Positions 35,061 through 38,082 of a DNA stretch of 64,000 bases are shown here, piece after piece. The stretch is taken from the NCBI GenBank assembly GCA_900155405.1, contig LT700188.1, positions 1,054,001 to 1,118,000 of the forward strand, read 5' to 3'. The position numbers were made by a program, and so were the translations under genes. The DNA is from Negativicoccus massiliensis (GTDB taxonomy: Bacteria > Bacillota > Negativicutes > Veillonellales > Negativicoccaceae). Positions within the stretch are counted from its first letter, which is position 1, and every line of letters begins with the position of its first letter. Below the pieces are notes generated by a model. The model did not search any database. It saw nothing but the letters and a program-made list of their open reading frames with translations, and was not told the DNA's origin.

Positions 35061-35185
35061 ATTAATACTCGTATTGAAATAATATCCCCAAACTTTTCCC
35101 GAGCGATATTTTATCATGGAAAGCGCCTGTTTGTGGGGGTTCTTTATGATCTTTATTGTACAATGAAAGAAAAAGGAGGCAATGT

Positions 35186-36088
35186 ATGGCAAAGCATTTG
35201 ACATATCTTACCGCGGCGCTGCTGGCGGCCTTGACGGTCACGACAAACGCTGGTTACGCGGCGGCGTCTGTCGTTGCGAGTGAACCCGCGGCGCTTATGA
35301 ACGCGACCGAAAACGCGACGGCGCTGAACGTCTGGCAAGCCGCTTGGCAAGCGCAACGACCGCAAGTCGTAACGCGTAAACAGGACATGAAAGCGACCTA
35401 TTTTCAATCGGCGTGGCGGGGATCCGACGCGGGTAAAGAGTTGGCCCGCGCGCTGGCGGAATATGCCGACAGCGGCTTGTTGCCGCCGCAGCAATACATG
35501 ACGACGGCGCAACGCGAAACCTTTTGGCAAAACGCCGAGGTATTTCAAGCCGCATTCGCCGACGGCAACGTGGCGGATGTATTTGTGATGCGCATGACGA
35601 CCGCGGAATTTCAGCGGGCGTTGGGCAAACGCTCTGCGCAGGCATTGCGCGACGGCTTGGGCCCGGCGCCGAGCGCATCCGCGAAGCAGGTGCTCGCGAC
35701 GCTTGCGCCCAGTCGCGACGACGTGCAGAAACAACTGGACCGCGTGGTGCGGCGCCTTAATGAACGGTTGACGGAGGATCTTTTCGCCGCCGCGCTCATG
35801 CAGGTCCGAGCCGAAGGAAAAATATTGCAAATGCGCGCCGATTTCGCGCCGATAGCGGATGCGAAAATCACGGCGTATACGCCGCTGACGCGCCGCTTGG
35901 CAAACGGTCAGCCGTATTGGGAGCAAAGCGTGCGCTACCGTGAGCGGGTGATCACAGAACCGGGCGCGCCGCCGACGGAAGCGGTCGTGACATGTATTGC
36001 GCAACTGTTCCCGCGAGAAGACGGCTGGGATATTGCGTATACCCTCATTGACGGCGACAGTAAGGAAAAATCAGTAAATAAAACGTAA
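35186..36088 (+). CDS. Exported protein of unknown function (family copy 1)
   Basis: A 300-residue secreted protein with a signal peptide of about 26 residues (LTAALLAALTV, cut near GYAAA). The mature part is mostly helical and charged. A C-terminal beta-rich block contains YTPLTRRLANGQPYWEQSVRY-type residues around position 240. The next two exported genes share the late pattern of a ...YxPLxRxxxGQxY... block and a terminal stretch around a D-G/D-T element, so I read the three as distant relatives. I recognise no named family. The ATG at 35186 has AAGGAGG 6 bases upstream. The last codons lie within a duplicated segment (see 36056). Confidence 0.7.
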   Translation: MAKHLTYLTAALLAALTVTTNAGYAAASVVASEPAALMNATENATALNVWQAAWQAQRPQVVTRKQDMKATYFQSAWRGSDAGKELARALAEYADSGLLPPQQYMTTAQRETFWQNAEVFQAAFADGNVADVFVMRMTTAEFQRALGKRSAQALRDGLGPAPSASAKQVLATLAPSRDDVQKQLDRVVRRLNERLTEDLFAAALMQVRAEGKILQMRADFAPIADAKITAYTPLTRRLANGQPYWEQSVRYRERVITEPGAPPTEAVVTCIAQLFPREDGWDIAYTLIDGDSKEKSVNKT

Positions 36089-36097
36089 TCGGACAAC

Positions 36098-36162
36098 AAA
36101 AAAAGAGGCGACCACTCGGAAAGTGGGTTTTAAACCACCTGATCGAGCCGGTCGCCTCTAGT
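36098..36162 (-). ncRNA. Putative small RNA, copy 1
   Basis: On the minus strand a consensus promoter leads into a sequence of about 65 bases that is nearly one hairpin. The 10-bp outer stem is AGAGGCGACC/GGTCGCCTCT (36150-36159 with 36104-36113), then GCTCG/CGAGT, then an inner GTGG/CCAC stem. Seven T residues (36104-36098) end it. No reading frame or gene lies downstream on that strand, so the product is taken as a noncoding RNA. Confidence 0.65.
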
Positions 36163-36168
36163 ACCATT

Positions 36169-36197
36169 ACTATACACGGATTGTTGAAAGGTGTCAA
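36169..36197 (-). promoter_or_regulatory. Consensus promoter of small RNA copy 1
   Basis: Minus strand: TTGACA (perfect -35, 36197-36192), 17-base spacer, TATAGT (36174-36169). It is among the best promoters in the window. Confidence 0.82.
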
Positions 36198-36265
36198 TGG
36201 ACATTCCCTGACGTGACAGTAAGGAAAAGGCAAAACAAACGGGTAAATAAAACGTAATCGGACAA

Positions 36266-36330
36266 CAAGAAAGAGGCGACCACTCGGGAAGCGGTTTTTA
36301 AGCCGCATTATCGAGCCGGTCGCCTCTATT
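36266..36330 (-). ncRNA. Putative small RNA, copy 2
   Basis: Same layout as copy 1. The outer 10-bp stem is identical (36318-36327 with 36272-36281). The inner stem is GCGG/CCGC instead of GTGG/CCAC, a compensatory U-A to C-G change that preserves pairing. The loop differs, so the two RNAs may have different targets. The T run is interrupted (TTTCTT), so termination may be weaker. Confidence 0.62.
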
Positions 36331-36336
36331 AGCATT

Positions 36337-36365
36337 ACTATACACGGATTGGTAAAAGGTGTCAA
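36337..36365 (-). promoter_or_regulatory. Consensus promoter of small RNA copy 2
   Basis: Minus strand: TTGACA (36365-36360), 17-base spacer, TATAGT (36342-36337). Both hexamers are unchanged from copy 1 although the spacer has diverged. Confidence 0.82.
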
Positions 36366-36453
36366 GAGATATTCCCTGACGTGAGAATGAAAAACATCAA
36401 CACCAAGAGGTAAGCGGCTCGTTTTTATTTTTTTCTCATTGCATGCATTATAT

Positions 36454-36482
36454 TTGCGATGTGAAACGCGATAGAGTATGAT
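36454..36482 (+). promoter_or_regulatory. Promoter of the 36573-38082 gene pair
   Basis: TTGCGA at 36454-36459 and TATGAT at 36477-36482, spacer 17, with a leader of about 80 bases. Confidence 0.62.
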
Positions 36483-36572
36483 GAAAGCGCTGAGAGACGG
36501 ATAGTATGCAGGGGTTGATTATCCTGCGGAACGGAATTCAATCAAAGAATATCGCATAAAGGAGGAGCGGGC

Positions 36573-37361
36573 ATGCATCGGATATTGTGGAGCGTGAGCT
36601 TGGCGCTGGCGCTGTTGGGCAACGGTTGCGCGCAGGCGGCGTTGCCGAAAGACGCGCCGACGCCGGTGAAAACGTATGCCGTGACGGACGGCTATTGGGG
36701 TAAACAACTGTGGCAAAGCGACGTATTTAAAATGGCGTACGCGTCGGCGCTTTCATCCGCCGCCGCGGCCAGTGGAGAAATAGGCCAGGACGAAGTTACG
36801 CCGCGTATCGTCAAGGCGGTAATGGATTCGTTGATGTTGACGCAGTGGCAGGCGGAGGATCATCGCGGCGTGCATGTGGCGTACGTGGTGACGGCGCAGG
36901 TGCCGTTGGATCTCATGGCGCAGAGCCAAGCCGCGAAAGAAAATCGCGCGGCCGAGTTTTGGGCCACCGCGTTTGAAAATACCGACGCGCGGGAGTTGCC
37001 GGAATATCTCTTGACGCAACCGCGCACGAAAGAAGAGGTGCAGGCGCAAATAGATCGGGCGAAGGCTTCGCTTGTCGCGGAAAACGCCGAGGCGGCGGCG
37101 TTCGTGCCGACATTGACACTGCGTTCGTACCAGCCGCTGATTCGTTATCGTGACGGGCAGGGCGGCGTTTACTACGGACAACATATGCGCTTCGTCATCG
37201 AAACGGGCGGAATCGTTTGGCCGATCGCCGTATTTTCCGATGTTCGCAAGACGGCGGACAATATTCAGTGCGCGTGGCTGATTACGGCGGATACGGAGTA
37301 CGCGTATTTCGCGCGAATTTGGAACCGATATGTGGGAATAGGAGGCGATCGCGATGCGTAA
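36573..37361 (+). CDS. Exported protein of unknown function (family copy 2)
   Basis: A 262-residue secreted protein. The signal peptide (about 1-22) contains LALALLGNGCAQA; the Cys does not sit in a standard lipobox, so lipidation is uncertain. The mature part is helical to about residue 175, then has LRSYQPLIRYRDGQGGVYYG and a C-terminal beta block that ends with DTEYAYFARIW. The next gene has a matching DTDREYFARYL end. The ATG has AAAGGAGG upstream. It overlaps the next gene by 8 bases. No named family is recognised. Confidence 0.7.
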   Translation: MHRILWSVSLALALLGNGCAQAALPKDAPTPVKTYAVTDGYWGKQLWQSDVFKMAYASALSSAAAASGEIGQDEVTPRIVKAVMDSLMLTQWQAEDHRGVHVAYVVTAQVPLDLMAQSQAAKENRAAEFWATAFENTDARELPEYLLTQPRTKEEVQAQIDRAKASLVAENAEAAAFVPTLTLRSYQPLIRYRDGQGGVYYGQHMRFVIETGGIVWPIAVFSDVRKTADNIQCAWLITADTEYAYFARIWNRYVGIGGDRDA

Positions 37362-38082
37362 AGTGGCATGGTTGGTCAGCGGCTTGCTCGCGCTGACGAC
37401 GGTCGCGTACGCGGCGACGCCCATCGCGGTGCCGCCGATGGGCACATTGCAATGGCCGGATACGATCACGGCGGCGTCCCTTACGGATGGTTTCATGGAT
37501 TCGCAGAAAGGTTCGGTTGCGCAGGAGCCAATGGCGGCAGTGGATGAAAATTTGACGCCAATGGAGGATGGGTCCGTTTACCAGTTGCAGGCGGAACGGC
37601 CGGAAGGATTGGCGACGGCGTGGCTGGTCAGCTTTGCCGTGCCGATGGACGACCCCGCTGAGTTCGAGCCGTTTTTCCGTTCGTCATTGGGCGATGAGGA
37701 GCGCGCGACATTGGCGCATTTTAATGTCATGCTCTACGGCTTGGAAGCGAAATTAAATCAGAAAATCGCCGCGCATTGGGAGAGCATGGTGAAAGACAAT
37801 CCGCAGTTACGCGGCGCGAACGCAATGCAAAAACAGCCGCCTCTTTATGTGCGTATTCGCGAGATCGATTCGCTCGTGCGGGTCACGCAGGCGCATGAAG
37901 TGATGTACCGCGTGGGCGCGCGACTGGCGCCGGAGATCGACGGCGGCTGGGTGCTGCCGTACTATGCGCAGCTTTACGTCGTGCGCCGCGACGATCAGCT
38001 GGCGGGCGTGCTGCTCCTGGTAAGCGATACGGATCGTGAATATTTTGCCCGTTATTTGGCGAAAGCCGTTCTGACTTTATAG
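37354..38082 (+). CDS. Exported protein of unknown function (family copy 3)
   Basis: A 242-residue secreted protein with a signal peptide (about 1-20, cut near VAYAA). A proline-rich start (IAVPPMGTLQWPDT) leads to a helical middle and a C-terminal part with WVLPYYAQLYVVRRDDQLAG and DTDREYFARYL. It is translationally coupled to the previous gene, and the shared ends suggest that the pair act together at the envelope. A terminator follows at 38106. Confidence 0.7.
   Translation: MRKVAWLVSGLLALTTVAYAATPIAVPPMGTLQWPDTITAASLTDGFMDSQKGSVAQEPMAAVDENLTPMEDGSVYQLQAERPEGLATAWLVSFAVPMDDPAEFEPFFRSSLGDEERATLAHFNVMLYGLEAKLNQKIAAHWESMVKDNPQLRGANAMQKQPPLYVRIREIDSLVRVTQAHEVMYRVGARLAPEIDGGWVLPYYAQLYVVRRDDQLAGVLLLVSDTDREYFARYLAKAVLTL

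Follow-up and report, generated by a model that had tools for sequence, protein, structure and literature searches.

We describe here a small-RNA cassette that occurs twice on the minus strand of a 64,000-nt stretch of Negativicoccus massiliensis contig LT700188.1 (genome G000; this whole stretch is called the window below), at 36.10-36.20 kb and 36.26-36.37 kb, and whose relatives, judging from sequence comparison, appear to form a large undescribed RNA family tied to predicted RNase domains of phage proteins. Phages have the cassette on the antisense strand, within the frame of a large polyvalent protein or shortly after it, directly downstream of an LPD3 (PF18798) or MuF_C (PF18819) domain. 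We lean towards the reading in which the cassette RNA silences or neutralises the neighbouring RNase toxin domain and the window pair are orphan copies; that the RNA is transcribed, that it acts as antitoxin or silencer and that it does so in trans are all predictions.

Association with phage LPD3 and MuF_C domains

A DNA search of relatives recovered the hairpin type of the window in G003, and the same promoter followed by quite different hairpins in G002, G009 and G056. The cassette of G002 and G056 runs antisense within a long open frame for a large polyvalent phage protein that has LPD3 (and MuF_C) domains, and that of G009 and G003 lies within fragments of polyvalent-protein genes. The association was then measured from the domains themselves, on a sample made up of 17 LPD3 domains (Veillonellales and other Bacillota), 8 MuF_C domains and 4 further viral LPD3 domains, a positive being a site that resembles a promoter in at least 8 of 12 positions and is followed by a hairpin and a run of T, on the antisense strand and at most 330 nt behind the domain. 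A cassette was found behind 28 of the 29 domains, and the sole failing domain has the hairpin with a weaker promoter. Random control windows were positive in 28 of 1000 cases across the genome and 29 of 1000 across polyvalent loci (about 3%), and the control positions at the domains gave 1/29 upstream and 3/29 on the sense strand. Even with the strict promoter TTGAC-N18-TAnAnT, 9 of the 17 LPD3 domains qualify, against a chance expectation of 0.014 per domain. The -10 hexamer lies 91-138 nt from the domain end in the case of LPD3 and 63-81 nt from it in that of MuF_C (with one at 225). The domain-bearing frames range from 175 to 4599 residues and are not hydrophobic peptides. In two viral contigs (L402 and L403) the LPD3 frame stops before the cassette and the RNA gene lies beyond the stop codon; a cassette therefore need not be part of a coding frame.

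Conservation of structure among members

All 29 collected members, which were picked by promoter and hairpin, have a single compact hairpin with a T-rich tail on the promoter (antisense) strand, and the predicted RNAs are 60-120 nt long with folding energies of -22 to -46 kcal/mol. Stem sequences are mostly unrelated between members, with pairing, promoter, spacing and T-run kept. The stems, whose maintenance in homologues an earlier note on this DNA had made decisive for its claim, are Watson-Crick at 365 of 408 positions, the rest being 28 G.T, 9 A.C and 6 mismatches. Since G.T outnumbers A.C, the RNA of the promoter strand would be the folding one, a point for which the count is support, not proof, because the way in which members were collected favoured G.T. 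An alignment of 14 sequences has pairing in 94.6% of its cells and changes on both sides in 11 of its 12 pairs, figures that arise partly by construction because stems were placed by pairing and loops shortened. The covariance-model search of relatives' genomes that the earlier note had proposed, made with a model from this alignment, recovered untrained members in G001, G024, G033 and G034. Weaker matches (E 1e-5 to 1e-3; G040, G023, G014, G045, G037 and G001:C2) were excluded from the count because they lie outside antisense frames and some are plain short-loop terminators. A promoter-only scan of viral contigs returned mostly unrelated promoters and was set aside, and a search of a phage collection with one polyvalent region as query gave no match.

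The cassettes found first have ITIxELLxGVKD as the sense-strand peptide beneath the promoter. We rejected it as a conserved feature, other cassettes sharing little beyond the residues under the two hexamers, and probably it is only a by-product. Where frames are intact, the peptides that run over the promoter vary between phages, with GTC and xTA as the codons beneath the hexamers, a count biased by its promoter-chosen members.

The pair of cassettes in the window

Both window copies have the same order, TTGACA-17-nt spacer-TATAGT, 9 nt, a two-tiered hairpin and a T-rich run, giving a predicted RNA of about 65 nt. The distal promoter (TTGACA-N17-TATAGT, minus strand, 36337..36365), whose hexamers are present in all members, precedes a predicted small-RNA gene at 36264..36331 on the same strand, with a hairpin from 36327 to 36272 and then TTCTTGTT. 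The proximal promoter of the same form, read from the sequence at 36169..36197 (minus strand), precedes a predicted gene at 36096..36163 (minus strand), with a hairpin from 36159 to 36104 and then TTTTTTGT. Their fold energies are -33.0 and -33.1 kcal/mol, with z-scores of -5.76 (distal) and -5.70 (proximal) and no shuffled sequence folding as well, and the covariance model scores them at 52 bits (E 1.8e-9, distal) and 56 bits (E 2.3e-10, proximal), each gene being itself in the training set.

The outer stem AGAGGCGACC/GGTCGCCTCT is the same in both copies; their inner stems, GTGG/CCAC and GCGG/CCGC, differ by a compensatory change, and the related copy in G003 has GTGG/CCAC. The pair forms a tandem repeat with a period of 168 bp, and the copies look like a tandem duplication of a single hairpin type. 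Re-reading and folding thus bear out the two minus-strand units with hairpin RNA and T-run that the earlier note had described, along with the identical outer stems and the preserved pairing of the inner one. Its statement that the promoter hexamers are kept also stands, and its description of the spacers as drifted is slightly too strong because they differ at only 2 of 17 positions. No protein gene lies downstream on the minus strand, as it had said: the next gene (35156-36088) runs tail-to-tail on the plus strand, and the proximal T-run stops about 8 nt short of its 3′ end. The note had recognised no known RNA family, and the window RNAs are without a match in Rfam at the curated threshold as well as at relaxed ones, where the best matches fell far under threshold. 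There is good support for its view of the two units as selected noncoding RNA genes: other genera and phages have the cassette too, with stems that pair although their sequences are unrelated, and it is also present in decayed copies that do not code for protein; the origin in phage polyvalent proteins was not visible to its author.

The cassette pair sits between the first and second of three successive plus-strand genes (window 35156-38082) with signal-like N-termini and C-termini that look alike, perhaps tandem paralogues. For a gene neighbouring the pair, the nearest entries in public genomes are Veillonellaceae metagenome bins at 73-77% protein identity and Veillonella at about 60%.

Detached copies in bacterial chromosomes

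Domain searches found no LPD3 and no MuF_C match in this genome. It carries at least six detached cassettes, namely the window pair and others at about 211 kb, about 807 kb (two, with different hairpins) and about 872 kb, the latter three sites all in broken frames, and the detached broken-frame copies retain promoter, hairpin and T-run. On the plus strand, opposite the proximal and distal window promoters respectively, we found relics of the phage linker peptide, ITIHGLLKGVNG (36166..36201) and ITIHGLVKGVKR (36334..36369), each with the frame broken nearby; because these are relics of ITIxELLxGVKD in a broken frame, the window pair is read as a detached descendant of a phage cassette. The 872-kb copy is in the same place in the congener G001 and therefore predates the split of the two species. 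The other three of the four sites (window, 211 kb and 807 kb) are empty in G001. At the window and 807-kb sites the insert is bordered on either side by an imperfect direct repeat of about 45 bp that G001 has only once; in the window (36053..36433) the sequence of about 40-45 bp stands on both sides of the two copies and between them, and at L326:6709-7129 a cassette insert is bordered by such imperfect repeats of about 45 bp, which are single at the empty G001 site. The flanking repeats may be relics of the domain end. A CRISPR-like reading of them was dropped, the middle copy at 807 kb scoring 28 against a shuffled 95% value of 25.

Some other decayed loci were observed. In G003, some 900 bp of decayed polyvalent-protein DNA between chromosomal genes (L243:9275-10194) contain a series of five cassettes, each with a different hairpin, and all five retain promoter and hairpin. 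In G009 (L242:9829-12011, on the pyrE and plsX side) and G056 (L241:7725-10847), polyvalent fragments lie among ordinary chromosomal genes with no evident prophage. Finally, a second, degenerate cassette (-10 TACACG, 9-bp stem; L384:4898) lies beside the 872-kb-type copy in G001 and is missing in G000.

Predicted likeness of the domains to RNase toxins

MuF-C is, according to PMC5512222, a predicted RNase of the BECR fold (PBECR domain). For LPD3, an AlphaFold2 model of a viral representative reached a predicted local distance difference test (pLDDT) score of 87.9, only one of five models being good. Structural re-ranking placed at the top a contact-dependent inhibition (CDI) toxin-immunity complex, 6cp9 (Z 6.2, root-mean-square deviation (rmsd) 3.2, 89 aligned), followed by a second one, 7m5f (Z 5.6, rmsd 3.1, 81 aligned), and further down by MqsR-MqsA, 3hi2 (Z 4.8, rmsd 3.4, 73 aligned), and the CDI entry 6vek (3.9), over an NTF2-like background near Z 3; values under 8 are suggestive only, and the matches are to whole entries rather than to an identified toxin chain. 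No colicin D or E5 entry was among the re-ranking entries listed.

Proposed function and alternative explanations

The RNA gene and the predicted RNase toxin domain (LPD3 or MuF_C) would form a module, with the RNA gene antisense directly behind the domain. The cassette would give a constitutively transcribed, self-terminating RNA of about 60-120 nt with one two-tiered hairpin. In a lysogen this RNA would most likely restrain the embedded toxin domain as an antitoxin or silencer, either by pairing with the complementary mRNA (antisense, with decay of the duplex) or by offering its hairpin as a substrate mimic bound by the RNase domain. Copies detached into host chromosomes, the window pair among them, would provide orphan RNA immunity in trans towards related phages, or else be remnants on the way to loss. 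An RNA antitoxin or silencer fits best because there is one RNA gene per predicted RNase domain, at a fixed distance, which moves with the domain and is kept without it. The more general form of this proposal, that each phage RNase domain has a nested antisense hairpin antidote and that bacteria accumulate detached copies as orphan immunity, is a possibility that we would sooner doubt than accept. Several observations weigh against the antitoxin or silencer reading. Outside Bacillota, and with looser criteria, a cassette lies behind only 4 of 9 LPD3 homologues (in an Achromobacter phage, an Ochrobactrum phage where the T-run is missing, a Helicobacter prophage and a Parabacteroides plasmid). 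The LPD3 model had no confident Foldseek match, and its apparent resemblance to CDI and MqsR-type RNase toxins is weak (Z 6.2 at best). The hairpin type of the window has no intact phage counterpart in the phage DNA collections searched. Finally, the stem and codon counts, whose members were picked by promoter and hairpin, are biased, and only the domain-anchored test is free of this bias.

The cassettes could be a chance meeting of promoter-like and terminator-like sequence, as such consensus promoter matches arise by chance elsewhere too. However, the strict promoter pattern has 75 sites in the whole genome (1.36 Mb), 7 of them followed by a long-loop hairpin and T-run, whereas five dinucleotide shuffles of the genome gave 7-12 promoter matches with hairpin and T-run after 0, 1, 0, 0 and 0 of them; these rates, those of the domain-anchored controls and the recurrence across genera make chance extremely improbable, and the domain-anchored test contradicts it. 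A more serious alternative is a device that acts in cis only, in which the RNA, or mere transcription, holds down leaky expression of the polyvalent gene in the prophage through collision or through formation of a duplex; the RNA would then not be an antitoxin, and the solo copies would be non-functional debris. The antisense position within the frame in most phage copies, the constitutive type of promoter and the coming and going of solo copies between species all agree with it. Yet it leaves unexplained why there is one cassette per RNase-like domain, at a fixed distance, rather than one per gene, why the stems are hypervariable and still fully paired, and why promoter and hairpin are intact in decayed copies, and in L402 and L403 the frame is over before the cassette begins; we regard it as doubtful, if by no means far-fetched.

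The hairpin could also be a DNA-level element, a site of recombination or mobility (attC-like or MITE-like, that is, resembling miniature inverted-repeat transposable elements) through which toxin modules would be shuffled and which would hop into intergenic DNA, its promoter being incidental. Polyvalent domains do shuffle modularly according to PMC5512222, the sites are polymorphic for presence, two of them have the repeats of about 45 bp, and the hairpins vary in sequence with conserved structure. The fixed-spacing conserved promoter, the T-run on the promoter strand only and the excess of G.T over A.C point instead to a transcribed RNA; there are no conserved ends, and the integron attC boxes RYYYAAC/GTTRRRY are absent from the member stem ends, which mostly start with purine-rich A/G runs, making a DNA element unlikely. 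Quite unlikely, too, is a reading as independent regulatory RNAs that the host has exapted from phage sequence and that act in trans on ordinary chromosomal mRNAs: detached copies do have an intact promoter and hairpin, and one is in the same place in two species, but a 14-mer scan of the genome gave no convincing target, and G001 has no cassette at three of the four sites. A 16-nt stretch of the window RNAs, AGGCGACCGGCTCGAT, also occurs at the end of an SDR-family gene (L322:9895-9910; G000 at about 729.9 kb), which was rejected as a target because the shared sequence has the same sense as the RNA; the identity is probably due to chance.

Relation to known systems and implications

IS10 RNA-OUT, ColE1 RNAI and CopA are short, constitutive, stable antisense control hairpins with variable loops. 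The cassette RNA resembles them as a short stable antisense hairpin with variable loops, but differs in the lack of a plasmid or transposase context, in having a toxin-like phage domain as its putative target and in a hairpin that differs in nearly every member. Type I toxin-antitoxin systems use antisense RNAs as antitoxins (see PMC6563280 for a review and PMC7699646 for cases on prophages), and share with the cassette a small structured RNA opposite a toxin-like gene, with its own promoter and terminator and frequent on prophages. However, where type I toxins are small hydrophobic peptides, the partner of the cassette is a predicted RNase domain within a polyprotein that can reach thousands of residues, and the RNA lies behind the domain (inside the frame or past the stop), one per domain, with detached copies. 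Type III antitoxin RNAs (ToxIN-like), as generally known and as described in PMC4147584, are repeats upstream of the toxin gene and co-transcribed with it; a structured RNA is there associated with an endoribonuclease, as is predicted for the cassette, whereas the latter consists of one hairpin, downstream of the domain and on the other strand, with a promoter to itself. The cassette fits neither type fully because it lacks a defining feature of each. Polyvalent proteins and MuF polymorphic toxins are the same protein context in PMC5512222 and PMC5576092, where term searches found no antisense or noncoding RNA at LPD3 or MuF-C, and the open-access papers that we searched describe both protein groups without such an RNA.

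If the antitoxin or silencer reading is true, a large and mostly uncharacterised group of phage proteins gains its missing partner, in that the predicted RNase domains would come with a nested RNA gene, and phage coding sequence would be shaped by an embedded antisense gene. It could also explain how lysogens tolerate such domains without immunity proteins, and the orphan copies of the host would then be a new form of RNA-based phage immunity.
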